This document shows, in pieces, positions 29,670 through 43,530 of a stretch of DNA of 52,828 nt. Source of the stretch: an uncultured Neglectibacter sp. Lineage in GTDB: Bacteria; Bacillota; Clostridia; Oscillospirales; Acutalibacteraceae. Numbering within the stretch: position 1 is the first letter of the stretch; each line of letters begins with the position of its first letter. The position numbers were made by a program, and so were the translations under genes. The notes beneath the pieces are model-generated. The model made no database searches. It saw only the letters and a list, made by a program, of their open reading frames with translations, and had not been told where the DNA came from. The DNA lies in assembly GCA_946554335.1 (NCBI GenBank), contig CAMNSA010000016.1:1-52828 (forward strand), written 5' to 3'.

Positions 29670-31043
29670 TTATTCCCCGGCGGGATAGCTCTCCTTTTCC
29701 CGCTGAGAGCACTCCCACAGCTGGGACGCGGTAGGAGACCAATGCTCTGCGTAGGCCTTGCACTTCTCACAGAGATGCTCCGCCGTCTCCGGGGATTGCA
29801 GGTCCGTGGAGTGTGCTCCGGTACGCTCCACCATTTCCCGCAGCTTATCCGGATTCTCCAGCATGGGACAGGGCATCAGATGGTTGTCGTTAAAGGGCTG
29901 TCCGTCGTGGTAAGCCATAAAGATCGGAGAACGCAGCACATCCAGCAAGCTCATCTCTCGAATATTGGCATTGGAATAATGGATGAACACACAGGGATCG
30001 CAGTCTCCGTTGGCATTGATATGAAAATACCGTCTTCCCCCTGCAATACAGCCCTGCACAAACTCTCCGTCATTTTGGAAATCCATGGCGAAAATGGGCT
30101 TGTTACGCCGTGCCTCCCGGATCTTATGATACATAAACTCCCGCTGCTTCGGCGTAGGCAGCAGCTCGGGCACAGCGTCATTGCCGATGGGCATATAATG
30201 GAAATACCACACAAAGGACGCGCCCCACTCTACCATCTGGTCGAAATATTCATCACTGCTGATGGAGGCAAAATTCTGGCTGGTATAGCAGCAGCTGATT
30301 CCAAAGGGCAGGTGTTTTTCCTTGAGCAAAGACATGGCCTCCACCACCCTGCGGTAGGTGCCTGACCCGCGCCGCTCGTCCGTAGCGGCCTCGAACCCCT
30401 CTACGCTGATAGCGGGCATAAAGTTCTTGACGCTGAGCATCTCCTGCGCAAATTCCTCGTCGATCAATGTGGCGTTGGTAAAGCAGAGAAACTGACAATC
30501 GCTGTGCTTTCTGCACAGCGCGATAAGATCACGCTTTCGCACCAGAGGCTCTCCGCCGGTATAAATATAGATGTACACTCCCAATTCCTTGCCCTGCATG
30601 ATAATGGAATCGATCTCGTCAAAGCTCAGATTCAACCGGTTTCCGTACTCCGCCGCCCAGCAGCCGGTGCAATGCAGGTTGCAGGCAGAGGTGGGGTCCA
30701 GCAGGATAGCCCAGGGGATATTGCAGCCGTACCTTTCCCTTAATTCCTCCTGGCGGGGCCAGCCTACCAGATTGCCGTTGATGATGAAATTCTCAAAGAC
30801 TGCCTTGAGCACCTCTTTATCCGTTTGGGTAAAAATACGGATCATCAGGCGGTGCATGGCACAGTCTCTGTCTTCGATCACCTTTCGAAAGGCCGCTCGC
30901 TGGACAGGGAAGCCCTCATCCCCTTTAGGCGCAAACCGGTCTACCCAGTCCATAAGCTTGGGTAGATTCTCCTCCGGGTCGCGTTCGATATACTCAAACG
31001 CTTTCTTCAGTCCGAATCGTACCATTCTGTTTGACGTATCCAT
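29670..31043 (-). CDS. Radical SAM protein with C-terminal Cys-rich (SPASM-like) domain
   Basis: A 457-residue enzyme. An N-terminal helical region of about 100 residues precedes the radical SAM core, with DPTSACNLHCTGCWAAEYG giving CxxxCxxC for the SAM [4Fe-4S] cluster and IYIYTGGEPLVRKRD. The C-terminus has further cysteines (FVQGCIAGG, CDPCVFIHYS, MPCPM, CEKC) suggesting one or two auxiliary clusters. The class is widespread in Clostridia as an uncharacterised radical SAM/SPASM group. No peptide substrate gene was seen beside it. The ATG at 31043 follows GGAGG; an upstream in-frame start has no similarity. Confidence 0.88.
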   Translation of the reverse strand: MDTSNRMVRFGLKKAFEYIERDPEENLPKLMDWVDRFAPKGDEGFPVQRAAFRKVIEDRDCAMHRLMIRIFTQTDKEVLKAVFENFIINGNLVGWPRQEELRERYGCNIPWAILLDPTSACNLHCTGCWAAEYGNRLNLSFDEIDSIIMQGKELGVYIYIYTGGEPLVRKRDLIALCRKHSDCQFLCFTNATLIDEEFAQEMLSVKNFMPAISVEGFEAATDERRGSGTYRRVVEAMSLLKEKHLPFGISCCYTSQNFASISSDEYFDQMVEWGASFVWYFHYMPIGNDAVPELLPTPKQREFMYHKIREARRNKPIFAMDFQNDGEFVQGCIAGGRRYFHINANGDCDPCVFIHYSNANIREMSLLDVLRSPIFMAYHDGQPFNDNHLMPCPMLENPDKLREMVERTGAHSTDLQSPETAEHLCEKCKAYAEHWSPTASQLWECSQREKESYPAGE

Positions 31044-31108
31044 GAGATAACCTCCTTGCAGTTTTTTCTGCTGCCAGTATATCCCATGAAAACCTTCGAC
31101 ATCAATCG

Positions 31109-31153
31109 ACAAAATCCGCCCTTGTCTGAATTTAAGACAAGAACGGATTTTGT
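31109..31153 (-). terminator. Terminator after the TetR gene
   Basis: A long imperfect stem: ACAAAATCCG and CGGATTTTGT enclose CTTGTCT and AGACAAG with a small internal bulge. It lies ten bases after the stop of the TetR gene and upstream of the radical SAM gene. Confidence 0.7.
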
Positions 31154-31162
31154 ATAAATACT

Positions 31163-31720
31163 TTATTTCAGAAATTTCTCCAAAGCGTTTTCCATGCTGC
31201 CGTCCATGATCACAAAATAGTCCTCCAGCTTGACATGGCGTTCATCCGGCATGCCCGCCTCTACCCACTCCAAAAACAGCGCGGTGATCCCCCGGGCGTA
31301 TATCATACAGATAAACTCCCGCTTGTCCTCCGGGACTCGCTGCGCCTGGGGATACAGCTCTATGATCTCCCCCACCGTTTCCGCAGCCCGCTTCACCATG
31401 ATCCGTTCGTATTGGATCCGGTTGGTGGAATCATAGGCGTGCAGGATCACAGGCTTGTGCAGGTAAAAATAGTGAAACAGCAGTCTGATTTTTTCCTGCC
31501 AGTCCGTCTCCTTTTCAAAATGCAGATCGATGTAGCTTTCGATCTCCCGAACCAGCGTCCATTCGATCAGGTCGTAAATATCGTGAAAATGATAGTAAAA
31601 GGTCTGCCGGTTCACTCCGCACTGGGCCGCGATATCCTTCACGGAGATCTTTTCAATGCTCCGCTTCAAAAGCAGCGTTTCCAGCGCTTGCGCCAGCGCC
31701 TCCTTGGTGGTCTGCCGCAT
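31163..31720 (-). CDS. TetR-family transcriptional regulator
   Basis: A 185-residue regulator. The N-terminal helix-turn-helix shows RSIEKISVKDIAAQCGVNRQTFYYHFHDIYDLI. The C-terminal ligand domain resembles the TetR_C_8 type found in dihydroxyacetone-kinase-linked and related Firmicutes regulators. The ligand is unknown. It lies between the large ABC transporter and the radical SAM gene, all on the minus strand, and may regulate either one. About 176 bases separate it from the transporter stop, and I see no gene in that gap. Confidence 0.9.
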   Translation of the reverse strand: MRQTTKEALAQALETLLLKRSIEKISVKDIAAQCGVNRQTFYYHFHDIYDLIEWTLVREIESYIDLHFEKETDWQEKIRLLFHYFYLHKPVILHAYDSTNRIQYERIMVKRAAETVGEIIELYPQAQRVPEDKREFICMIYARGITALFLEWVEAGMPDERHVKLEDYFVIMDGSMENALEKFLK

Positions 31721-31896
31721 ATAAAAACCCTTTCCCTTTAGTTATGAAAACTATTATATGCCGGAAAGAGGCAGATTTCAAGCGTTTTTCTCCTGATAAG
31801 GCGGGGAAACTCCGGCCGGTCTGCGACAGCGGAAAAAGATTACGCTAATGGGGCGCTGGTGACGAACTCAGCTGTGCGGCAGCTCCGGGCCAGCAA

Positions 31897-34800
31897 TCAC
31901 TCCGTACGAAGCGCCACCACAGGGTCCTTCTTCGCCGCGCTGCGGGAGGGGATGATGCCGGAAATCAAGGTCAGCAGGATACTGATCAGCACCAAAGCGA
32001 CAGCCACCGGCACAGGCAAAAAGGCATTGAGCCCGGCGATACCGGTAAAGTGATACATCAACCGATTGATGGGAATACAGAGCAGGTAGGTGACCAGAAC
32101 TCCCAGCAATCCGGAAATAAACCCGATAATGATGGTCTCCGCATTGAACATGCTGGACACATTGCGCTTGGAGGCTCCGATAGCTCTCAAAATGCCGATC
32201 TCCTTTGTACGCTCCTGCACGGAAATCAAAGTGATGACGCCGATCATGATGGAGGAAACGATCAGCGACACCGCCACAAAGGCGATCAGCACATAGGTGA
32301 TGGCGTCGATGATAGAGGTCACAGAGGACATCATCAGCCCTACATAATCTGTGTATTCGATCTTCTTCAGATCCTCCACCGTGTCGTTGTAGGCGGTGAT
32401 CGACTCTTCGATAATACCCTTGCTGCCGAAGGTGGCGGCGTACAGGTTGATGGAGGCGGGGCTTTCCGGGTCCACATATCCCAGGGTGAGAAGGTTCGCG
32501 TCGTAATCTGACTCGGAGAATTCCAGCACCTCGTCATAATATCTTGCGCACTGGGCGTCGGTGTATTCCGGTAGCTCCTGGGCTAAAGCCCCTGCCAGCT
32601 GCTGGGTAGTAAGCGCCGCCATCTGCTCCCGCACTCCGGCGGAATACCGGGCGTAATACTGCTCTTCCCACATCTGGGTGAACAGCTCCTCCAGGTCCTC
32701 GTCGCTCATGGAGGCAAGGTATTCCTTGATATTCTCCTCGTTCATGCCGGCCTGCTGGGTAATGCCCGTGAGCAAAGTTTCTTCCATGTCGGCGCGGGTC
32801 ATGGAGCCCAGCTGCTCCTTTTTCGCCTCTTCCACCTGCTCTTCGTCGGGCAGACTCTTGATAGTGAGGTAGGCGTCCGCTTTTCCCTGCTCGTCCAGGG
32901 CGTCGATATGAGATATGAAATCCGCCGCCTTGCTTGCCTCATCCGCAGTCTCCGCGGCGTCCCGGAAAGGAAGGCCGGTAAAGATATCCGTATCCGGAGA
33001 ATCCTGCTGGGCCTTGACCGTTTCGGAATCCTTCGCCTTTTCCATCAGGTATTCCGTAAGCTCATGAGTATAGCCGATAGACCCTGACAGCATGGAGGAG
33101 GCGGCCTCCTCGTTGGGACGAATGATGCCGGAAACCTTCAGGGAGAGGCCGTTGTCGTAGAGATACCGAAGCCCCGCCTTGGTGTCTCTCAAATCGGTAT
33201 AACAGCCGGTGGTCTCATCCAGGGCATAGCAGTCAGAGCTCAGAATGGTGCGAAACTCCATGCCGCAGATCTCTTCATAGCTCCAATTTTCCTCTTTCTT
33301 TTCCGCCTTTGTCTTATCCCTCACCGCCTGCATCAGGGCGTCGATATCCTCCTCGGGTTTAAGCCCCAAAGCGTAAAGGGTGATGTCGTCGATCTCGTTG
33401 TTATCGTCCACCACCAGCACGATCTCGTTGTACTCCCTGGGCCAGCTGCCGCAGATCAGATCGTACTGCTTTGTAAGCAGTGGATTGACGGGTCCGCCGT
33501 CCATGGCGGGCAGCAGCTCTTCCCACAGGATCATAGAGCTCCCCATGGGCATGAAGGCGTTCATGGTCTCCATACCCATTCCGTACTCCTCGCTCATGCC
33601 CAGCATGGAGGACATATCCATTCCAAAATATTCCAACAACAGCTCCTGCATCAGGGCCTGAGGGTCGCAGCGCAGGATCTGATCATCCACACTTTCCGTA
33701 TAGACCAGCAGATCGGCGTCATAGGTGTACTGCACACCGCTGACCGCCTGGGCAAGCTCGCTTTTCTCCCCTTCTTCATCGGTCTTTTCAAGCTCCTCCT
33801 CCAGATACTTCTTGAAGGAGGCAAGGTCATTCTTCGTTTCGGTGGAGGAATTCAATGCGTTGACCATGTCATAGACCATGGATTTTTCATAGACTTTGTC
33901 CCTGGGATGCTCCTTCCCGGCATGGGCGGCTCCGATAAAGGAGGTCATCAGGCTTCCCAGATCCATGGTCTGAGCCTCTAAGGTAATGGGATAGGAGGAA
34001 AGGGTGTCCTCCTGCAGGGCGTTAATATAGGAGGTCATCCCCTGGGACACCGCGAAGATCAGGGAAATGCCGATGATGCCGATGCTTCCCGCGAAGGCGG
34101 TGAGGGCGGTGCGTCCCTTTTTCGTAAAGAGGTTTTTTAAGGACAGACCGAAGGCGGTGGCGAAAGACATGGAGGGCTTTTTTGCCGCTTTTCCCCGAGG
34201 GGCGGCAGGGACCTCCGCCTCCTCCTTCAGTTCTTCCTCTGTCAGGGGGGCTGAGTCCTCCGTAATAAGGCCGTCCAGCATCCGCACAGTGCGGGTGGCG
34301 TATTTTTCCGCCAGCTCCGGATTATGGGTCACCATAATGACCAGCCGTTTTTGGGCGATACGCTTTAAAATATCCATCACCTGCACACTGGTTTCCGTAT
34401 CCAGCGCGCCGGTAGGCTCATCTGCCAGTACGATCTCCGGGTCGTTGACAATGGCTCTGGCGATGGCTACCCGCTGCATCTGCCCGCCGGACATCTGGCT
34501 GGGCTTTTTCCGCAGCTGGTTCCCCAGCCCCACCTCCTCCAAAGCTTGTTTTGCCCTCGCTCTGCGCTCCCTTTTGGACACGCCGGAAAGGGTCAATGCC
34601 AACTCCACATTCTGCAGCACTGTCTGATGAGGAATCAGGTTATAGCTTTGAAAGACAAAGCCGATGGAGTGATTGCGGTAGGCGTCCCAATCTCTGGCCC
34701 TGAAGCCCTTGGTGGAACGGCCGCCTATGAGCAGCTCGCCGGAATTATAGCCGTCCAATCCGCCGATGATATTGAGCATGGTAGTCTTTCCGCAGCCGGA

Positions 34801-34917
34801 GGGGCCCAGCACGGCCACAAACTCGCTTTTCCGAAAGCACAAGCTGATCCCTTTCAACGCGTGGATGGCCTCCCCGCCCATATGGTATTCCTTCTGGATG
34901 TTTTTCAGCTCAAGCAT
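31897..34917 (-). CDS. MacB-like ABC transporter: ATPase fused to FtsX-type permease with a large extracytoplasmic domain
   Basis: A 1006-residue fusion. Residues 1-235 are the ATPase: Walker A GPSGCGKT at 38-45, signature MSGGQMQRVAIARAI, Walker B IVLADEPTGALD. A linker leads to a first helix (SIGIIGISLIFAVSQGM) near residue 290. An extracytoplasmic domain of about 500 residues, rich in Glu and Asp, comes next. Three C-terminal helices with the FtsX fold follow (VLIAFVAVSLIVSSIMIGV, then ERTKEIGILRAIGASKRNV in the loop). The large outside domain is unlike short MacB and recalls lantibiotic or bacitracin resistance transporters. The ATG at 34917 follows AAAGGAG. Lipoprotein, peptide or antibiotic substrates are all possible. 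Confidence 0.9.
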   Translation of the reverse strand: MLELKNIQKEYHMGGEAIHALKGISLCFRKSEFVAVLGPSGCGKTTMLNIIGGLDGYNSGELLIGGRSTKGFRARDWDAYRNHSIGFVFQSYNLIPHQTVLQNVELALTLSGVSKRERRARAKQALEEVGLGNQLRKKPSQMSGGQMQRVAIARAIVNDPEIVLADEPTGALDTETSVQVMDILKRIAQKRLVIMVTHNPELAEKYATRTVRMLDGLITEDSAPLTEEELKEEAEVPAAPRGKAAKKPSMSFATAFGLSLKNLFTKKGRTALTAFAGSIGIIGISLIFAVSQGMTSYINALQEDTLSSYPITLEAQTMDLGSLMTSFIGAAHAGKEHPRDKVYEKSMVYDMVNALNSSTETKNDLASFKKYLEEELEKTDEEGEKSELAQAVSGVQYTYDADLLVYTESVDDQILRCDPQALMQELLLEYFGMDMSSMLGMSEEYGMGMETMNAFMPMGSSMILWEELLPAMDGGPVNPLLTKQYDLICGSWPREYNEIVLVVDDNNEIDDITLYALGLKPEEDIDALMQAVRDKTKAEKKEENWSYEEICGMEFRTILSSDCYALDETTGCYTDLRDTKAGLRYLYDNGLSLKVSGIIRPNEEAASSMLSGSIGYTHELTEYLMEKAKDSETVKAQQDSPDTDIFTGLPFRDAAETADEASKAADFISHIDALDEQGKADAYLTIKSLPDEEQVEEAKKEQLGSMTRADMEETLLTGITQQAGMNEENIKEYLASMSDEDLEELFTQMWEEQYYARYSAGVREQMAALTTQQLAGALAQELPEYTDAQCARYYDEVLEFSESDYDANLLTLGYVDPESPASINLYAATFGSKGIIEESITAYNDTVEDLKKIEYTDYVGLMMSSVTSIIDAITYVLIAFVAVSLIVSSIMIGVITLISVQERTKEIGILRAIGASKRNVSSMFNAETIIIGFISGLLGVLVTYLLCIPINRLMYHFTGIAGLNAFLPVPVAVALVLISILLTLISGIIPSRSAAKKDPVVALRTE

Positions 34918-35100
34918 GCTGAGACTCCTTTCATAACAACCGGCTTCTGAAAGGGCTTTCCGCGCCGTAAAGCCCGGATCGGACCTTCGCATTTCAGAAA
35001 ATTATCATACTCTTCTTTTCTCCGCTGTGTCAATGCGGGAGTAAAATTGTTTACAGTTCTTTTACAGAGCTGTCATTTCCCCTCCTTCCAAACACGAAAA

Positions 35101-35137
35101 GGGAAGGAACGCTTTCCCCAACAAAGCGTTCCTTCCC
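35101..35137 (-). terminator. Terminator after the fucI-GH172-GH116 operon
   Basis: Fourteen-base perfect arms (GGGAAGGAACGCTT and its complement) around a nine-base loop. Read on the minus strand it is followed by TTTTCGTGTTT, 20 bases after the GH116 stop. Confidence 0.85.
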
Positions 35138-35157
35138 TCCTGGAGCAGGCTGTTTTT

Positions 35158-37614
35158 TCAGTTCTTCAGCTCTACCTTTTCCACCTCGATGGAGCCGGAG
35201 ACCACCCGGTAATAGGGCTTTCCATCCTTTCTGCCCACCAGGCCGTAGCCGGTGTCGGTGCAGAGGAAGGTTTCAAAGTCCCCGTCGATTTTGGGATCCA
35301 GATACAGGGTTTTCCGGTAGGCGTCGTAGCGCACGCCCGTCATGCCTTCCAGCAGAGCGTAAGACGCTAAAGCTCTGGCGTACCAGTGGCCGCACTCGTA
35401 CTCGTCAAAGGGATTTCGCACATCCCCCTGATACCGGCTGCGGCAGGCCCGCACGATATCCAGACCCTTTTCCACCTCTCCCATGAACATCAGATGGGAC
35501 GCCACCTGGTACTCGATGCCGGTCCACACCTCGTCGCTGTAAACAAAGGGCAGTGCGGGCTTCTCCCCGTGAGGCCAGGAGCAGAGCAGCAGCCCTGCCT
35601 CGTCACCCAGGCAGTAGCCGGGGCGCTGAGGGTTTGCGTGCTCCAAAAGGCTATCCATCAGATTGTAGCGGTGTACACAGTTTAAATGGCTCTTGATCTT
35701 TTCCCGATCCACCGCCTCATCCATGCCGCTCAGCTTCCCCAGCCAGAAGCCCAGCACGCCGTCGGAGATACAACCCTTTCCGTACTGATATTTCGGGCCT
35801 TCCTCATGGATCAGCGCCTGTGCCTCCGGCGAGATCCGGTCGTTGATGGCCGCCTGGCCCGGCTTGGAGTGCAGAGTTTTCCACTCTACCTCCTGATAAA
35901 AATACTCCCCGTTATAAAGCCGCTCTTCCAAATAGCGAACGCCCCTGTTCAGAAGCGTTTCATACTCTGACCCATCCTCTCCCAGCACCGCGGCCATCTC
36001 CGTCATGGCCTGCAAAGCGGAGAGATAGAAGGAAGAGCACATGGCGTCAGCGCCCCAGAATTCAATGTCATAGGTGTTGTGGTGCGGCTCCTTCAAAACG
36101 CCCTCCCGTTCTCTGTCCCACAGGTTGACGCAGTAATTCATGGAGGCCTTTACCCGGGGCCACAGCTTTTGAAGCCACTTGACATCCCCGCAGATCAGGA
36201 AATCCCGGTACACCTTGACGATACCGCCCAGCTGCCCGTCTGCGGCGGCGTGGAAATCGTGGTTGGGCTCTCCGATAGGCAGCGCGGACCGGAAATTCTG
36301 GTGGCCCTCCTCGTTCTGAGAATCGAAAAACTCCGTCTGCCTCAGACTGCGCTCCATGGCGGGAAACAGGTGGCAGATGGCCTGTGCGTAATTCCACACA
36401 TGGGTGCAGGAGCCGGAACAGGAGCCCACGCTGTCGCAGCAGCCCTCCCAGCACCACAGCCTGCCGTCCGTCTGGCGCAGCACCGTGGGAGATTTCAAGA
36501 TGCTCAGGTTGGCGCCCACCGCCTCCAGCACGATGTCCGGTAAGGTGGAGGCATAGAAGGTGTCGGTGAACAGCGCGGTCTCGTCCCGCAGCCGCTCGTA
36601 CTGAGAGGCCGCGCACCGCGCAACCTCCTCCACGCTGTGGAACTTGGTGGTATACCAAGGGCGATACCGCTCCAGCTCCAGGAGCTGCGCGTCGGTATAG
36701 GGCTCCTTCTCCCCCTTCTGCCCGGTCCTGAGCCTGGAATCCGGCACATACCAGCAGCACTGGACCACAACAGTCTTCGCCTCTCCGGGCTCCAGATGGA
36801 AGGGCAGAGAGAGGCTTCCGCCGGGATTGGGATGGGAGGCGTCGTTCTCCCGGATCCTCTCTTCCGCTTTCCCGGCCTGGATATCGTTCCAGAGCATGGT
36901 GAGGGAATCGTACCACCCGCCGCGAAACAGCGCCGTATTCACCTTTACCGCCGGATCATGGATCGAGACGGCATAATACCCCTCGTCCCAAGGCGTCTGA
37001 GGCGTCCCCTTCTGGGCCAGGACAAAACCGTTTTCCGTGGGATAGACCGAGCGCTCCCCGCTGCCCTGGGCCATAAAATTCATGGAACTGTAGTAATACA
37101 CCGCATCAATGGCGGACTTCTGCCTGTTTTCAAACCGGTATTCGAGATACGCCATGGGATAGCTGGACTCATCCGCATCCGGCGGCGTAAAGGGGCTCCA
37201 CGCCTTCAAAGAGACCTCCAGCGGGATTTTCGGATCCTCCAGGCGAACCTTCGCAAAGGGAAACCGGAAGGAAAACTCAGCGTTCTGAAATCTGGGCAGC
37301 CCGTAGCTTTTCCCGTAGGAACCGGTGCCCTTGGCAAAGGTCTCAGCATAGAGCGCCGAGGATGTGGTGGCCGTGGCCGCGCCGTAAATTTTATATTTCG
37401 GCACCTGGCCCTCCAGCACCCGGCTGACATTCTTTTCCCCCTTGACGGTGACGGCGGAAAACAGACAGGGCTCCAGGTTCACATTGGGCGCGTTTCTCAG
37501 GGAAAAGGCGGAAAAGGCTCCCGTGCCCTCCACAGTAAACATGCCTGCGCCCATGCCCCCCAGCGGGAACCCAATATAATCCAGCTGCTTTCCTGTATAG
37601 GTTTTCACTTTCAT
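35158..37614 (-). CDS. GH116 (DUF608) glycoside hydrolase
   Basis: An 818-residue retaining glycosidase of the GBA2-related family. The N-terminal domain begins with IGFPLGGMGAGMF, the family hallmark, and the C-terminal domain is an (alpha/alpha)6 barrel. The likely nucleophile is Glu518 in HNTYDIEFWG. The likely acid/base is Asp618 in GCISDGVLGFWLG, matching the DQ-x2-G-x-W position of GBA2. Known activities in GH116 include beta-glucosidase, beta-xylosidase, glucosylceramidase and exo-beta-D-arabinofuranosidase. No signal peptide is seen, so it acts in the cytoplasm on imported sugars. It is the last gene of an operon with GH172 and fucI, which makes an arabinofuranosidase role worth testing. 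Confidence 0.88.
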   Translation of the reverse strand: MKVKTYTGKQLDYIGFPLGGMGAGMFTVEGTGAFSAFSLRNAPNVNLEPCLFSAVTVKGEKNVSRVLEGQVPKYKIYGAATATTSSALYAETFAKGTGSYGKSYGLPRFQNAEFSFRFPFAKVRLEDPKIPLEVSLKAWSPFTPPDADESSYPMAYLEYRFENRQKSAIDAVYYYSSMNFMAQGSGERSVYPTENGFVLAQKGTPQTPWDEGYYAVSIHDPAVKVNTALFRGGWYDSLTMLWNDIQAGKAEERIRENDASHPNPGGSLSLPFHLEPGEAKTVVVQCCWYVPDSRLRTGQKGEKEPYTDAQLLELERYRPWYTTKFHSVEEVARCAASQYERLRDETALFTDTFYASTLPDIVLEAVGANLSILKSPTVLRQTDGRLWCWEGCCDSVGSCSGSCTHVWNYAQAICHLFPAMERSLRQTEFFDSQNEEGHQNFRSALPIGEPNHDFHAAADGQLGGIVKVYRDFLICGDVKWLQKLWPRVKASMNYCVNLWDREREGVLKEPHHNTYDIEFWGADAMCSSFYLSALQAMTEMAAVLGEDGSEYETLLNRGVRYLEERLYNGEYFYQEVEWKTLHSKPGQAAINDRISPEAQALIHEEGPKYQYGKGCISDGVLGFWLGKLSGMDEAVDREKIKSHLNCVHRYNLMDSLLEHANPQRPGYCLGDEAGLLLCSWPHGEKPALPFVYSDEVWTGIEYQVASHLMFMGEVEKGLDIVRACRSRYQGDVRNPFDEYECGHWYARALASYALLEGMTGVRYDAYRKTLYLDPKIDGDFETFLCTDTGYGLVGRKDGKPYYRVVSGSIEVEKVELKN

Positions 37615-37636
37615 TTTAAGATCTCCTCTCCATGGT

Positions 37637-38719
37637 TCAGATAACCTCTAAAGCGTCTCTGTCACCCAGCTTCGGATAGGGCTGGGTCTCACCGGTCTGA
37701 TACCAGAAGGCCGCCGAGGCGATATCGTCCTGCAGGGGCAGATACCTCCCCCCCTCTCGCCATCCGAGGGCCTGGATCGTCACTTTCAGGTCACTTTCAA
37801 AGCGGATCGGGTCCATGATATGCCACCGGTATAAGCTGAAGCGCTGCTGGCTCTGATAGAGGCCGTCTGGCTTGGAAACATAGGAAAGGCCCGAATAGGG
37901 CGTTGTGAAGGTTTCGTACTGATGGATCTTCTGGTTTTCAAAATTGTAGGCCCCGCAGAAATAGTCCTCCGTGCCGGTGCCGCAGATCGTGGGATACTCT
38001 CCGTCGCCATCCAGGAAGAACTTGATCTCTCCCTCTCCCCACCAGCCGCTGTTGTTCACGCCCCAGGCAAGATATGTGCCCACATACTGGCCCTTTCCCT
38101 TTACGCCGTCCAGAATGATATAGTCCTCCTTATAGGGAAGCGGATTCACCCGGCGAAACTGAGCGTGGAAGTACGCGGCGTCCTCCGGAAGATTAGTCAG
38201 GGTATAGTCGATCTGATAATAAATGGTCATGGGCTCTTCACCGCGGTTTTCCATGGTGATGAGGCAGTGCTTCCGAAATGGCATGGGCCAGTAGCAGTTA
38301 AAGGCCTTGCCCGGATTCACGCACACCGCCAGAGAGGAAAGGGGTGCGTATTCTTCCCAGCCGCTGGCAAAGAAATCTCCCAACGGACACTCTACGGCAG
38401 GCCTTTCTTCCCCATCCCAGTACATGCGCAGGATCGTGCTGCGCCACTTTCCGGTGGGGGTCATCCAGATATGCTGGATGCAGCCGGGGCCGTCCACATC
38501 CGCCAGGGTGATGGTCTTGCCGGGGGCGATGACCAGATAGGGGTTTACCTTCCAGCCCTTGCCCAGATCCCGTGCGGCTCGGCGGGCGCTGCCGTTTTCC
38601 AGCTCACACATTCCGCCTTTTCCCTTTTCTCCGGTCACATTTTCCGGAGAGAGGGAACGAGTCTTCCCGTCGGAGACCCGGAACAGGTTCCCGAGGTTCA
38701 TCTGTAGTCCGTCAAACAT
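37637..38719 (-). CDS. GH172 (DUF2961) glycoside hydrolase
   Basis: A 360-residue double-jelly-roll protein of the DUF2961 family, now GH172. Characterised members are alpha-D-fructofuranosidases/difructose-anhydride enzymes and exo-alpha-D-arabinofuranosidases. Family features are GPGCIQHIWMTP, LGDFFASGW, GWWGEGEIKFF and GTGTEDYFCGAYNF. Glu251 in the last motif and Glu229 or Glu231 in the previous one are candidates for the catalytic pair. There is no signal peptide. It sits 30 bases after fucI and 22 before GH116, and its start follows AAGGAAG. Pentofuranose or fructofuranose oligomers are the expected substrates. Confidence 0.87.
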   Translation of the reverse strand: MFDGLQMNLGNLFRVSDGKTRSLSPENVTGEKGKGGMCELENGSARRAARDLGKGWKVNPYLVIAPGKTITLADVDGPGCIQHIWMTPTGKWRSTILRMYWDGEERPAVECPLGDFFASGWEEYAPLSSLAVCVNPGKAFNCYWPMPFRKHCLITMENRGEEPMTIYYQIDYTLTNLPEDAAYFHAQFRRVNPLPYKEDYIILDGVKGKGQYVGTYLAWGVNNSGWWGEGEIKFFLDGDGEYPTICGTGTEDYFCGAYNFENQKIHQYETFTTPYSGLSYVSKPDGLYQSQQRFSLYRWHIMDPIRFESDLKVTIQALGWREGGRYLPLQDDIASAAFWYQTGETQPYPKLGDRDALEVI

Positions 38720-38749
38720 CGCTGCTGCTTCCTTTCGTATGAATAAAGG

Positions 38750-40546
38750 TTATTTATAGAGGGGTCCGTAAGCCTGGCAGGCACGGTAATCCTGGCCCTC
38801 CTTATCCATTCCAAAGGAATTCCAGGCCGCGGGGCGGAAGATCTTCTCCTGAGGCACATTGTGCATACACACCGGGATGCGCAGCACAGAGCAAAGGGTG
38901 ATCAGATCCGCTCCGATATGCCCGTAGCTGATGGCTCCGTGGTTCGCCCCCCAGTTGTTCATCACATCATAGGCGCTGGCGAAAGCGCCTTGTCCTGTCA
39001 CTCTGGGGGCGAACCAGGTACAGGGCCAGGTATAATCCGTGCGCTTCCAAAGCTTGTCCGTGACCTCCTCCGGCAGATGGACGGTCCAGCCCTCCGCCAG
39101 CTGCATCACGGGGCCTAAGCCCTTAACAAGATTCAGGCGCATCATGGTGACGGGCATTTCCGCCCTGGTGCAGAACCGGGAAGAGAATCCGCCGCCCCGG
39201 AAATAGCCCAGGTCAGAGGTACACCACTGGGTGGCCTTCAGGCAGGCCTGCTGATCGGCTTCACTCATTTCCCAGAATGGCTTGATGACCGCGTTTCCCG
39301 CCTGATCCTTCACTTCCCCACAGGCGTCGATACAGGCAGCGCCGGAGTTGATGAGATGCAAAAAGCCTCCCGCCTCCTTCGCCCTGCCCTCCAGCTCGTA
39401 CCCGTCCGCCGCTCTGCGGACGGCGTCGGCGCTCCAGTGAGAACGCACATCGGCAAAGATCTGGGCCCGGTTTGTGAGGAGTTTCCCGAACAGCATGGCC
39501 GCCGCGTTGAGGGTATCGTTTTCCGTGGCCAAAACAAAGGGCTCTCTGGCTCCCTCCCAGTCAAAGGAGGAGTTGAGCATGGCCTCGGCAAAATCTCCGT
39601 TGGGATAAAAGTCGGTCCACTGGCGCTGGCCCTGGAATCCAGCGGCGATGGCGTTGTGGCCGATGCGCTCTTCCTTCCAGCGTTCCGGCAGCTTTTCGTT
39701 GCCGCGGCACAGGTCCTTGATGATGCACATCATCTTGACGGAGAACTCCCAGTCGTCCTCTTTCTGCTCGGGGGTGCGCTGAAGCTCCTTGGGGTTCTTG
39801 TCGAAGCCCTCCGGGCAGTTTTTCTTCGTCCAGGCAAGGGCCTTCTGATACTCTTTCTCATCGTAGATGTTCTGGGACATCCGGCGGATCAGCTCTACCT
39901 CGTCCACCGATTCCACCCGTATTCCCAGATACTCCTCGAAAAAGGCGGGGTCGATAATGGAGCCCGCGATGCCCATACAGGCCGAGCCGATCTGGAGATA
40001 GGATTTTCCGCGCATGGTGGCTGCGGCCACCGCAGCTCTGCCGAAGCGCAGCAGCTTCTCCTGCACATCCTCCGGGATCCGGGTGTCGTCCGCCTCCTGC
40101 ACATCCCGGCCGTAGATCCCAAAGGCGGGCAGGCCCTTCTGGGCATGGGCGGCCAATACGGAAGCCAGATACACCGCGCCGGGGCGTTCTGTGCCGTTGA
40201 ACCCCCACACGCCCTTGATGGTTTTGGGGTCCATATCCATGGTCTCCGCGCCATAGCACCAGCAGGGCGTTACCGTCAGGGTGATGTCCACACCCGCCCT
40301 GCGAAATTCGTCTGCACAAATAGCCGCTTCTCCTACCCTGCCGATGGAAACGCTGGAGATCACCGTTTTCACAGGCTCTCCATTGGTGTAGCGCAGATTC
40401 TCCTCAAACAGCCTGGCGGCAGCTTTCGCCATGGCCATGGTCTGTCCCTCCAGAGATTCCCTCACCTTCAGGGCTCCTGTACGGGCGTCGATCACCCGGC
40501 GGATGCCGATCACAGGATATGCTCCGCGATAACGATTTTCTGCCAT
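38750..40546 (-). CDS. fucI: L-fucose isomerase (also D-arabinose isomerase)
   Basis: Converts L-fucose to L-fuculose, and in characterised enzymes also D-arabinose to D-ribulose, using Mn2+. The 598 residues are collinear with the E. coli enzyme: [48 protein letters not shown] and [14 protein letters not shown]. The metal ligands lie in [10 protein letters not shown] (Glu), [10 protein letters not shown] (Asp) and [15 protein letters not shown] (His). It is the first gene of an operon with two pentofuranosidase-type hydrolases and no fucosidase. No fuculokinase or fuculose-phosphate aldolase is in the window, so the locus fits D-arabinose at least as well as fucose. Confidence 0.95.
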
Positions 40547-40590
40547 AACTCATTTTCTCTCCCTTCCTGCTGAGAAAGTTCATTTTTTTC

Positions 40591-40596
40591 ATTATA
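40591..40596 (-). promoter_or_regulatory. -10 box of the fucI operon without a recognisable -35 box
   Basis: TATAAT on the minus strand, 45 bases before the fucI ATG. The sequence at the -35 position is purine-rich (AAGAGAAAGAG) with no TTGACA-like hexamer. This is typical of activator-dependent promoters and agrees with the divergent AraC-type gene. Confidence 0.5.
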
Positions 40597-40669
40597 TCCC
40601 TGTATTTTCTCTTTCTCTTGTGTTATCATGGCAAAAAGTAGGATAATATTCACTTTCGGAGGAATCACT

Positions 40670-41557
40670 ATGCAGGGCCATGCGTATAATGAGCTGCTTC
40701 CCAGAGGCGAACCCGATTTTCCCCTGGAGCTCTATCACATTTCAGAGGGACATCCCCGCTTCATCATGCCTCACCACTGGCACATGGAATATGAGCTGGT
40801 CAGGATGGTCACCGGGCATTTGACCGTCTGGCTGGACGGCGTGGAATACCGTCTGGAGCCGGGAGACCTGCTTTGGATCGCGGGGGGAGTGCTCCACAGC
40901 GGACAGCCGGAGCCGGGAGCGGTTTACCAGTGCATCGTCTTCGATCTGGACCTGCTCAAAAGCTCCTGCGGGCAGTGGTCCCGGCATTTGCGGGAGCTTT
41001 CGGCGGGCCGCCTCTTTCTTCTGCCAAAGCCTCCCAGGGTGGACTCCACCCTCTCCCTTCTGGCAGAGCTGCTCTTCACCCACGGGACCGGGAAGGAAAA
41101 AGGCGAGCGTCTTGCGGCCTTTGGAGCCCTCTGCGGTCTGTTCGGCCAGATGATCGAGCGGGGCTGGTACACTTCATACCTTCCGGAAAACGAAAGCAGG
41201 CGGAAAAATATCCGCCTGCTCAAAAAGCTGTTCTCTTTTATCGAGACCCACTATGCCGAGCCTCTCACGCTGGAGGCCCTTGCCCGGGAAGCGGGCATGT
41301 CTCCCAAGTATTTCTGCCGCTTTTTCCGGGAGATGACCCAGCACACTCCCATGCAGTACCTGAACCTGCGCAGAATCAGCCACGCCTGCGAGCTCTTGAG
41401 CGAGGGAAGCTGCTCCGTAACGGAAGCCGCCTTCGCTTGCGGCTTTAACGACCTGAGCTATTTTATCCGCGCCTTTCATCGCAGCAAGGGGCTGACGCCC
41501 AAGCAGTACGCCCTGCGCCAGGCGGCGAAGCAGCGTCAGGAGCTATCCGCCTCCTGA
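40670..41557 (+). CDS. AraC-family transcriptional activator
   Basis: A 295-residue regulator. An N-terminal cupin domain (HHWHMEYELVRMVTGHL, LEPGDLLWIAGGVLHSG) probably binds a sugar. The C-terminal double helix-turn-helix includes LTLEALAREAGMSPKYFCRF and VTEAAFACGFNDLSYFIRAF, then RSKGLTPKQYAL. The ATG at 40670 follows CGGAGG; the frame is open 14 codons upstream without a binding site. It is transcribed divergently from fucI, 123 bases apart, so it very likely controls the fucI-GH172-GH116 operon. Confidence 0.93.
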   Translation: MQGHAYNELLPRGEPDFPLELYHISEGHPRFIMPHHWHMEYELVRMVTGHLTVWLDGVEYRLEPGDLLWIAGGVLHSGQPEPGAVYQCIVFDLDLLKSSCGQWSRHLRELSAGRLFLLPKPPRVDSTLSLLAELLFTHGTGKEKGERLAAFGALCGLFGQMIERGWYTSYLPENESRRKNIRLLKKLFSFIETHYAEPLTLEALAREAGMSPKYFCRFFREMTQHTPMQYLNLRRISHACELLSEGSCSVTEAAFACGFNDLSYFIRAFHRSKGLTPKQYALRQAAKQRQELSAS

Positions 41558-41588
41558 AAAGGCGTGAGAAGCTCTTCCGGAAGTTTCC

Positions 41589-43469
41589 TTACTCCACCTG
41601 GAGCCGGTAATATTCCCAGAAGCTCATCTTTCTCAGGTCCTCTTCATACTGTGCGGGAAGTTCTTCAAAGAGATTTCCGCTCTCGTCGATCCCCGTACCC
41701 TTATGGTACACCGGCAGTCTGCGGCGCAGGTCGTTCAAATAGGAGAAGAAGCTGCTTGAATCCCGCCGTCCGGTGAGCTCCAGCACCGCAGCCCCCAGGT
41801 AATTGGCGTTGATCACGCCGTTTTCCGGCAGCTCCAGGGCCTGCTTGGCGGAAGAGAAATCCAAGAGCTTTTCCGCCGCGTCGTTCACCCACAGCACAAA
41901 GGGCGTCTCGAAGGTAGCGAGGGTGGTGTCAGCGTCCTTTCCCTCTCCCAGGGAGATCCCCAGCTGGCGATAAGCGTAGTAGCTGTCCCCCATATTGGGC
42001 AGATGGTCGCCGAAGAATACCAACAGTACCGGCTCCTCCCGGCCACTATAATACTCTGTGAGGTTCTGGAGCATCTGATCCGCGTCCCGCACACCCTTCG
42101 AGTAAACGGAAAGCATACTCTGCGCTTTTTCCTCCACCTTCACGGAAAGGGGCGCCTGTTGGATGGGCAGATCGCCGTACTTCGCCTCCGAATAGCTCAT
42201 GTGGTTCTGGATCGTCACCGTGTAGTTGAAATAGGGCTTACCCTCTGAAACGGCGGCCTCAAACTCCTCTTTCATGATCTCCAGCACCGCTTCGTCCGAC
42301 ACCCAGTTTCCCAGCCGTTCAGGGGAATCCATATCGTCGATGAACATCAGCTTTTCCGCGCCGAAGTACCGGTACACATTCTGACGGTTATAAAACCAGG
42401 CCTGTCCCGGATGAATGAAGCTGGTCTGGTAGCCCTCCTCGGAAAAGACACGGAAAATGCTGTCCACATCCTTATTGAGCACCCGGAAGGCGGAGGCGTT
42501 GCTGCCGCCGATGAGGTTCGTCTGCATTCCGGTGATCACATCGAACTCCGTGTTCGCCGTGCCCGCGCCGAAGTTGGGCGCCACGATGTGCCCCGCCAAA
42601 GCGTTTTCCTCGTTTTTCAGAGAGTTGAAAAACCGAAGGGGCTCCTCCCCCTCGGGGTAATCAAAGGCCGGGTGGTTGGTAAGGTCCGAGAAGGCCTCGT
42701 TCATCACGATCACCACATTGACGGGAAGGCCCTCTTCCTCCTGCTCTGGGTGCTCGGAGGCGTAGGAGGCAGCCTCTGAGGCGGAGAAGCCCTGAGGCTT
42801 CTCCACCAGGTACTGGTTAAAATTATAGCAGAAGCAGTAGGGAAAGCCCAGCTGTTCAAATACACCGGCAATATAGTATTTCGCCCGCACTGGGAAAGAG
42901 TTGTACAGCTCCTTGGAGGCGTACACCGTGTGGACACAGCCGATAAAAACCCCCACACAGGCCGCGGCTCCTCCCAGGGCAAGACACAGGTTTTTCCAAA
43001 CCTTTCCAAAGGGGCGTTTCCCCCGGAAGAAAAATCCCAGCAGCAGCATGAGGACAAGAAAACCGAAGATCGCCAGCAGTGACGGGATGTGCAGACTCAG
43101 GTCATAGCTCTGCACGGCGTTTCCCGCCTCCTTGATCAGGCGGAAATCCTTGGGCGTCAGCGGCTCGTCCCGCTTTTCCACCATGGTGCGGTTGACAAGG
43201 GACAAAATGCCGCCCAAGGTCCCCACCAGCGCCGCTCCGTAAAAGGAGTTGGAAAACAGGAAGCCCGCGGCGAGGGTCAGAAGCCAGAAGGGCAGGAAGT
43301 TTAAAAGCAGCAGGTTAAGATGGGAGAGAAAATACCGGCAGATCGTTCCTATAGCCCCCGGCTGGATATACAGAGCAAGTCCGGTCTCCAAAAGCGCCAG
43401 CGGGACCGTCAGCACAAGCTGCCAGACAAGCCCCAGCTGCCGCCGGGGCAGGGAAAATTTTCCGTTCAT
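41589..43469 (-). CDS. Lipoteichoic-acid-synthase-like membrane phosphoglycerol transferase
   Basis: A 626-residue protein. Five membrane helices at the N-terminus precede an extracellular sulfatase-fold domain starting near residue 245 (VNVVIVMNEAFSDL). The nucleophile threonine is in NFGAGTANTEFDVITG. Other metal-site residues lie in VFFGDHLPNMGDSYYAY. It would move glycerol-phosphate from phosphatidylglycerol to a glycolipid or another surface acceptor, as LtaS does. The frame could begin with TTG three bases earlier; neither start has a clear binding site. It has a consensus-like promoter at 43531-43559. It converges on the AraC gene with a 31-base gap. Confidence 0.9.
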   Translation of the reverse strand: MNGKFSLPRRQLGLVWQLVLTVPLALLETGLALYIQPGAIGTICRYFLSHLNLLLLNFLPFWLLTLAAGFLFSNSFYGAALVGTLGGILSLVNRTMVEKRDEPLTPKDFRLIKEAGNAVQSYDLSLHIPSLLAIFGFLVLMLLLGFFFRGKRPFGKVWKNLCLALGGAAACVGVFIGCVHTVYASKELYNSFPVRAKYYIAGVFEQLGFPYCFCYNFNQYLVEKPQGFSASEAASYASEHPEQEEEGLPVNVVIVMNEAFSDLTNHPAFDYPEGEEPLRFFNSLKNEENALAGHIVAPNFGAGTANTEFDVITGMQTNLIGGSNASAFRVLNKDVDSIFRVFSEEGYQTSFIHPGQAWFYNRQNVYRYFGAEKLMFIDDMDSPERLGNWVSDEAVLEIMKEEFEAAVSEGKPYFNYTVTIQNHMSYSEAKYGDLPIQQAPLSVKVEEKAQSMLSVYSKGVRDADQMLQNLTEYYSGREEPVLLVFFGDHLPNMGDSYYAYRQLGISLGEGKDADTTLATFETPFVLWVNDAAEKLLDFSSAKQALELPENGVINANYLGAAVLELTGRRDSSSFFSYLNDLRRRLPVYHKGTGIDESGNLFEELPAQYEEDLRKMSFWEYYRLQVE

Positions 43470-43530
43470 CAAAAAAGGTCACATCGCTTCTAAAAAAATA
43501 ACGGCAGATTTCTCTTCATCCACCGGGGTA

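Follow-up and report, generated by a model that had tools for sequence, protein, structure and literature searches.

A predicted intracellular D-arabinofuranoside operon encoding FucI, GH172 and GH116 beside a divergent AraC regulator in an uncultured Neglectibacter species

D-arabinofuranose is known mostly from the cell walls of mycobacteria and corynebacteria. Enzymes that release it were described between 2021 and 2023 from actinobacteria, from Bacteroidota and from a bacterial parasite. The D-arabinan locus of Microbacterium arabinogalactanolyticum encodes EndoMA1/2, ExoMA1 and ExoMA2, an ATP-binding cassette (ABC) importer and a putative isomerase and kinase (PMC10509167). Polysaccharide utilisation locus (PUL) 42 of Dysgonomonas gadei holds GH172a, GH172b and GH172c, whose products release D-arabinose, as well as DUF4185/GH183, and a fucose isomerase is abundant on D-arabinan (PMC10115798); a putative GH116 gene also belongs to this cluster (PMC10509167). 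Here we analyse a stretch of 52,828 nucleotides (the window; contig CAMNSA010000016.1 of assembly GCA_946554335.1, from an uncultured Neglectibacter sp.), in which a three-gene operon encodes FucI, a GH172 protein and a GH116 protein beside a divergent AraC-family regulator. The window is contig C16 of a 2.53-Mb genome that is 99.4% complete (G000; G and L denote genomes and loci). No such locus in Clostridia or other Bacillota was met in the open-licence literature, as judged by titles and the opening of abstracts; GH172 also occurs in a fructan PUL of Bacteroides uniformis (PMC9905522), and a Blautia paper merely cites a bifidobacterial GH172 enzyme (PMC11538131).

We consider it quite likely that the operon is an intracellular module scavenging D-arabinofuranose from short imported glycans. 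By family, clade and residues, the exo-alpha- and exo-beta-acting D-arabinofuranose enzymes and the D-arabinose isomerase are all present in it. In the proposed scheme, short glycans containing D-arabinofuranose would be imported into the cell before trimming; GH172 would remove terminal alpha-D-arabinofuranose and GH116 terminal beta-D-arabinofuranose, both as retaining enzymes; FucI would isomerise the released D-arabinose to D-ribulose; and a kinase encoded elsewhere, for which AraB and XylB are candidates, would yield D-ribulose-5-phosphate for the pentose phosphate pathway. A preliminary description of this DNA had proposed the use of D-arabinofuranose-containing glycans under the label of D-arabinan utilisation. 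The first part gains support from the placement of both hydrolases and from gene linkage in other phyla. The label is not borne out, and a full D-arabinan PUL was rejected, GH183 and a linked importer having been sought and not found. The genome yielded neither a GH183 nor a dedicated kinase nor an orthologous binding protein, so the use of D-arabinofuranosides or their oligomers is supported and that of polymeric D-arabinan is not.

The GH172 open reading frame (ORF; DUF2961 domain; 37637..38719, minus strand, 360 amino acids) is predicted from family and homology to encode a cytoplasmic exo-alpha-D-arabinofuranosidase. Its best match among solved structures is ExoMA1 (8ic8; E 2.1e-121, with 182 of 345 aligned residues identical); alphaFFase1 (5.8e-44), BACUNI_00161 (4kq7; 2e-39) and DgGH172c (8ah3; 1.9e-37) follow at a great distance. 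In a tree of 35 rows the window protein and ExoMA1 fall in one starred clade of 26 rows (100/99), and the other three all lie outside it, so that the placement in a fructofuranosidase clade raised in the preliminary description is not what was found. The tree drew on the best match from 12 of the 22 GH172-bearing loci, plus the second GH172 of L102, and on 14 of a set of 17 loci, with L035, L036 and L037 omitted and L019, L020 and L070 added. The catalytic glutamates are, by homology, E229 and E251. In ExoMA1, an exo-alpha-D-arabinofuranosidase, Asn253 blocks fructofuranose, and alphaFFase1 has Gly299 at that place (PMC10509167). The equivalent in the window protein is N259. Within the 26-row clade the position is Asn in 16 sequences, Asp in seven, and Gly, Cys and Ala once each; Asn259 thus supports the D-arabinofuranosidase reading, though the residue is not invariant in the clade. 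The single Ala belongs to a paralogue in the window's own genome (contig C8, L070:9312-10385), whose protein is approximately 44-48% identical; roughly 1.2 kb separates the gene from one for a GH29 fucosidase, and an HPr kinase gene is nearby.

The GH116 ORF (DUF608 and Glyco_hydr_116N domains; 35158..37614, minus strand, 818 amino acids) is likewise predicted from family and homology to encode a cytoplasmic enzyme, in this case an exo-beta-D-arabinofuranosidase. A single-sequence search against solved structures returned ExoMA2 at 9.5e-110 and the next match at 7.9e-14, and a 10-sequence profile gave 2.5e-186 for ExoMA2 versus 5.4e-41 for glucosylceramidase/beta-glucosidase. The window protein is closer to ExoMA2 (subfamily 4) than to the beta-glucosidases of subfamily 1. 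A beta-glucosidase placement had been the alternative named in the preliminary description; the protein is far nearer to ExoMA2, although it does not sit within ExoMA2's own branch. ExoMA2 is an exo-beta-D-arabinofuranosidase in which His446 and Arg483 constitute the key difference from beta-glucosidases, the beta-glucosidase TxGH116 having Asp and His at these places (PMC10509167). Residues E390, H405, R442 and D516 of the window protein correspond to Glu431, His446, Arg483 and Asp557 of ExoMA2 (paper numbering; the PDB chain index is higher by 4), with E390 and D516 as nucleophile and acid/base and H405 and R442 as the sugar-recognising pair. All four are invariant in GH116 alignments of 10 and 25 sequences, the latter drawing on 24 of the 80 named loci introduced below and the GH116 tree on 30 of them. 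The same four residues are kept in a second, more distant GH116 clade (L062-L065); they are therefore subfamily markers and not, on their own, proof of substrate. Three Bacteroidota loci that also carry FucI encode a longer, second GH116-like protein of about 1030 amino acids, which forms a separate long branch (L102:12562-15666, L104:15732-18827 and L128:4670-7789). At L229:8770-11199 (G169), a GH116 gene of the window protein's clade has one in-frame TAG and is perhaps decaying.

Relatives of the window's genome carry the same genes in several arrangements. A search of 60 relatives, counting the window's genome, gave GH172 matches in 28 and GH116 matches in 13, six of the latter at 53% identity or more. 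The divergent arrangement of araC with fucI-GH172 recurs in G013, G028 and G007. One G013 contig carries the tail of GH172 and then GH116, and another stops in the head of GH172; the operon was apparently broken during assembly. In G018, about 14 kb hold GH172, LacI, a PfkB/SIS fusion, a DUF6259 protein, a binding protein, two permeases, DUF4185/GH183 and GH116, and a 13-kb contig of G024 has the same set minus LacI and GH172; GH172 was not found in the G024 genome, which is 60% complete. The Pfam assignments come mostly from the G024 proteins and were transferred to G018 at 81-95% identity. A search of the 60 relatives for GH183 found four over the cut-off, with strong matches in G018 and G024 as the positive control, and there was no GH183 match in 14 control genomes. 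By eye, the G024 GH183 and binding proteins open with a lipoprotein-type signal and its GH116 does not, which fits digestion outside the cell, import and trimming inside. The DUF6259 protein of these GH183-GH116 loci (about 740 amino acids; L061:1732-3978 and L024:4391-6583) is possibly a further glycosidase. A compact regulated operon in the window, together with GH183 loci in two genomes of the same genus, argues that D-arabinofuranose glycans would be available to this lineage. In a class-wide draw, GH116 at 51% identity or more occurs in 7 of 391 genomes including the window's; four of the other six have it on loci of at least 15 kb, and in G340 GH172 lies directly beside it, with an MFS_2 sugar transporter nearby.

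Linkage of the GH116 clade extends to other phyla. A contig scan with six GH116 sequences yielded at least 584 relatives in many phyla, of which the best 80 named loci were kept; counts are for all 80, over approximately 1.17 Mb of flanks of uneven length. GH172 is near GH116 in 22, with 15 of these reaching at least 55% identity; the corresponding counts are 18 for a DUF6786 protein, 11 for a FucP-type transporter, eight for FucI and four for an AraB-like kinase, whereas control genes taken from the window's genome are near it in none (RhaA, AraD and ClpB), one (GlpK and HisF, each) or two (GH29). Linkage to GH172 and FucI thus recurs in other phyla and exceeds that of the six control genes. 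At L109, from Pedobacter panaciterrae, the row runs LacI, GH172, DUF6786, FucI, FucP of the major facilitator superfamily (MFS), an FGGY ribulokinase and GH116, and that genome has a strong GH183 match. L102, from a member of the Tannerellaceae, has an extra GH172 that groups with DgGH172c, and the locus resembles that of D. gadei; a profile search found no GH183 in its genome. A single-query tblastn search for GH183 found none in the 80 named loci, which is a weak test. The DUF6786 proteins beside GH116 (for example L109:3692-4921, L132:3081-4304 and L115:3694-4998) are candidates for a new enzyme of D-arabinofuranoside use; no literature was found under the family name. The preliminary description had called for a search of related genomes for the gene set together with a transporter and a D-ribulokinase. 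Such sets do occur: within the genus, G018 and G024 combine GH116 with GH183, an ABC importer and PfkB/SIS, G018 having GH172 as well, and beyond it P. panaciterrae has GH172, FucI, FGGY kinase, MFS transporter and GH116.

Two sets of catabolic genes accompany these glycosidases. FucI with an FGGY ribulokinase is found at L102, L109, L115 and L128, the L109 kinase scoring over a ribulokinase cut-off. The other set is a PfkB ribokinase-family protein with a single-domain SIS protein, encoded separately in a rumen Bacteroidales locus (L132:7835-9435) and as a fusion in G024 (L061:76-1674) and on contig C7 of G018 (L024:6672-8324). Against TIGR02152 the L132 PfkB protein scores 302.8 bits, over the cut-off, and the fusion 281.8, under it; the best families for the SIS part are KpsF/GutQ and arabinose-5-phosphate isomerase, all under cut-offs set for longer proteins. 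We infer that PfkB/SIS is a candidate kinase-first route for D-arabinose. Genes of this kind are present in only one of the 80 named loci. Both routes would lead from D-arabinose to D-ribulose-5-phosphate and are therefore indirect evidence that the glycosidase pair releases D-arabinose. A broader reading, which we put forward tentatively, is that GH172-GH116 could be a portable D-arabinofuranoside unit of several phyla, joined either to isomerase-first catabolism (FucI, either with an FGGY kinase or, as in the window, by itself) or to kinase-first catabolism (a ribokinase-family protein with a KdsD/GutQ-like isomerase). Few of the genomes searched have a strong GH183 gene, so the unit's usual substrate might then be short D-arabinofuranose decorations of glycans and not mycobacterial arabinan. 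Arabinose-5-phosphate isomerase is known mainly from lipopolysaccharide sugar synthesis; were this broader reading true, the kinase-first route would put it to work in catabolism. The alternation of catabolic routes beside the glycosidase pair points to the PfkB/SIS fusion, DUF6786 and DUF6259 as candidate genes.

Several observations weigh against the scavenging module. The window GH116 falls in a clade of 36 rows (100/100) that does not include ExoMA2, which lies on a long branch; the two proteins are only 31.8% identical, and no characterised member is among the rows of that clade. No GH172 lies within the flanks searched at 58 of the 80 GH116 loci; FucI occurs with any GH172 at only five and with an ExoMA1-type GH172 at only two (L102 and L109). 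In only one (G340) of the four long loci of the class is GH116 paired with GH172. The arrangement of AraC with FucI-GH172 stands without an adjacent GH116 in G028, where GH116 is on a different contig, and in G007, whose GH116 is only a 34% match. The sheer size of the GH116 clade, the many loci in it with no GH172 nearby, its separation from ExoMA2 and the arrangement in G028 and G007 would suit a D-arabinose system in which GH172 and FucI alone act on D-arabinose and GH116 serves another beta-pentofuranoside or beta-linked sugar. We regard this as rather unlikely: the four ExoMA2 active-site residues are kept, even if the more distant second clade also has them, GH172 adjoins GH116 in the window, in G340 and apparently in G013, and GH116 stands beside GH183 in G018 and G024. 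The extracellular and import steps also count against the module. GH183 was not found in the window's genome, and when 14 of the genomes behind the named GH116 loci (that of L128 outside the set) were searched with a GH183 profile, five gave matches, of which three were over the cut-off and one, Pedobacter, was strong. The binding protein of G018 and G024 has no orthologue in the window's genome (best E 3.2e-4). Import is the largest gap in the model: no oligosaccharide importer is among the genes at 29670-43472, and genome-wide only a binding protein of the G018/G024 type was sought.

FucI (38750..40546, minus strand, 598 amino acids; Fucose_iso N1, N2 and C domains), encoded by the first gene of the operon, opens a further line of objection, as its sequence does not separate D-arabinose from L-fucose isomerases. 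It exceeds both NCBIfam L-fucose isomerase cut-offs, which are of equivalog level, and its scores of 840 bits for the D-arabinose isomerase 3a9r and 798-812 bits for L-fucose isomerases differ too little to discriminate. The operon might instead be linked to L-fucose, with FucI taking L-fucose freed by GH29 enzymes and GH172 and GH116 acting on neighbouring residues of fucosylated glycans. Three GH29 fucosidase genes are present elsewhere in the window's genome, among the FucI relatives at 70% and above, one of 78% in G030 has as neighbours a kinase resembling FucK and a protein resembling class II aldolases, and in G006, of the same genus, a rhamnulokinase-like kinase typical of FucI operons, a FucI (57%) and a GH172 stand in a row (L026:3388-7729). 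A genome-wide FGGY_N search of the window's genome, however, found four kinases over the cut-off, namely GlpK, a rhamnulokinase-type kinase, AraB and XylB, with no fuculokinase (FucK) among them, and a genome-wide Aldolase_II search returned AraD and RhaD, both of the class II aldolase family, and no fuculose-phosphate aldolase (FucA). The rhamnulokinase-type kinase adjoins RhaA and RhaD and falls just below its NCBIfam cut-off. L-fucose could therefore not take its usual route, and a classical L-fucose operon is disfavoured; a side activity of RhaB and RhaD could still serve L-fucose metabolism. Of the earlier statement that no fucosidase or fuculose pathway gene accompanies FucI, the absence of the kinase and the aldolase holds genome-wide, but GH29 genes do exist elsewhere. 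With GH29 near the GH116 clade at only two of the 80 loci, we judge the L-fucose explanation unlikely. The FGGY search also found no dedicated D-ribulokinase in the window's genome, which tells against the scavenging module. For AraB of Escherichia coli a similar kcat with D-ribulose as substrate is cited (Lee 2001, in PMC6452873), and the enzyme contributes to growth on D-arabinose (PMC6452873); by analogy, the AraB of the window's genome could phosphorylate D-ribulose. A general role in the use of fructofuranosides (difructose anhydrides, caramel sugars) or of beta-glucosides would accord with the presence of alphaFFase1 in GH172 and with the beta-glucosidase activity of most characterised GH116 enzymes. 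It is very improbable, and both roles were rejected, as clade placement, Asn259 and the His/Arg pair of GH116 all indicate arabinofuranose. In the breakdown of fructose or glucose, a FucI-family isomerase would, to our knowledge, serve no clear purpose.

The layout of the locus agrees with the preliminary description in most respects. On the minus strand the order is fucI, GH172, GH116, with araC divergent, and the ORF coordinates confirm the gaps of exactly 30 (fucI-GH172) and 22 bases (GH172-GH116). An intrinsic terminator (35097..35137, minus strand) ends the operon with a 15-bp perfect stem followed by TTTT; its folding energy is -34.3 kcal/mol, compared with -20.7 +/- 3.3 for 200 shuffles (z -4.2). 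Reading of the sequences by eye agrees that neither hydrolase has a signal peptide. The fucI promoter has a perfect -10 box, TATAAT (40591..40596, minus strand), and, as earlier stated, no recognisable -35; in line with this, a sigma-70 scan of 33000-43500 called no promoter at fucI. The regulator (HTH_18 and AraC_binding domains) stood as to gene, family and orientation, though not as to its start: the ORF is 40628..41557 (plus strand, 309 amino acids), and the gene most likely begins at ATG 40670 behind GGAGG (40670..41557, 295 amino acids) rather than at ATG 40628, because the stretch ahead of ATG 40670 varies in length among species.

Between araC and fucI, a 40-base block (40617..40656), a candidate AraC operator, is near-identical across the four species with the AraC-FucI-GH172 arrangement and extends to the position of the missing -35 box. 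Its 31-base core occurs once in the window's genome with up to three mismatches allowed, and a regulon search of this genome with the conserved motif returned only the araC-fucI site itself. The intact core CATGGCAAAAA is absent between the genes of the other AraC-FucI pairs (G030, G054, G057 and G052). The conserved block and the missing -35 fit activation of fucI by the neighbouring AraC protein, which probably acts through this block on the -35-less promoter when sugar is present. Downstream of the operon are an ABC ATPase-FtsX permease fusion (31897-34992), a TetR regulator (31163-31720) and a radical-SAM/SPASM protein (29670-31112), and a sulfatase-fold protein that is weakly LTA-synthase-like, far below the cut-off, flanks it on the other side; Pfam and NCBIfam searches revealed no obvious sugar genes among the neighbours at 29670-43472.

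Comparison with the described systems can now be made. Like the M. arabinogalactanolyticum locus, the window combines the same pair of exo-enzymes without signal sequences, an isomerase step and a GH172 of the ExoMA1 clade. Unlike it, the window operon includes no GH183, ABC importer or kinase (nor was a GH183 found in the genome), has an AraC regulator, and encodes a GH116 that is 32% identical and of a separate clade. With D. gadei PUL42 it shares FucI, an ExoMA1-clade GH172 (there DgGH172a, as published) and GH116; PUL42, from Bacteroidota, has GH183 endo-enzymes, and the window lacks any of this extracellular half. The route proposed for the sugar resembles D-arabinose catabolism in E. coli, where FucI acts on D-arabinose and AraB can phosphorylate D-ribulose (PMC6452873). 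E. coli uses free D-arabinose after a regulatory mutation, whereas the window's FucI is encoded in an operon with predicted D-arabinofuranosidases. The operon offers a small, testable enzyme set for D-arabinofuranose in another lineage. Judged from sequence, it probably works like the intracellular half of a D-arabinan system that here stands by itself with an AraC regulator, of a kind whose full systems are known from actinobacteria and Bacteroidota.

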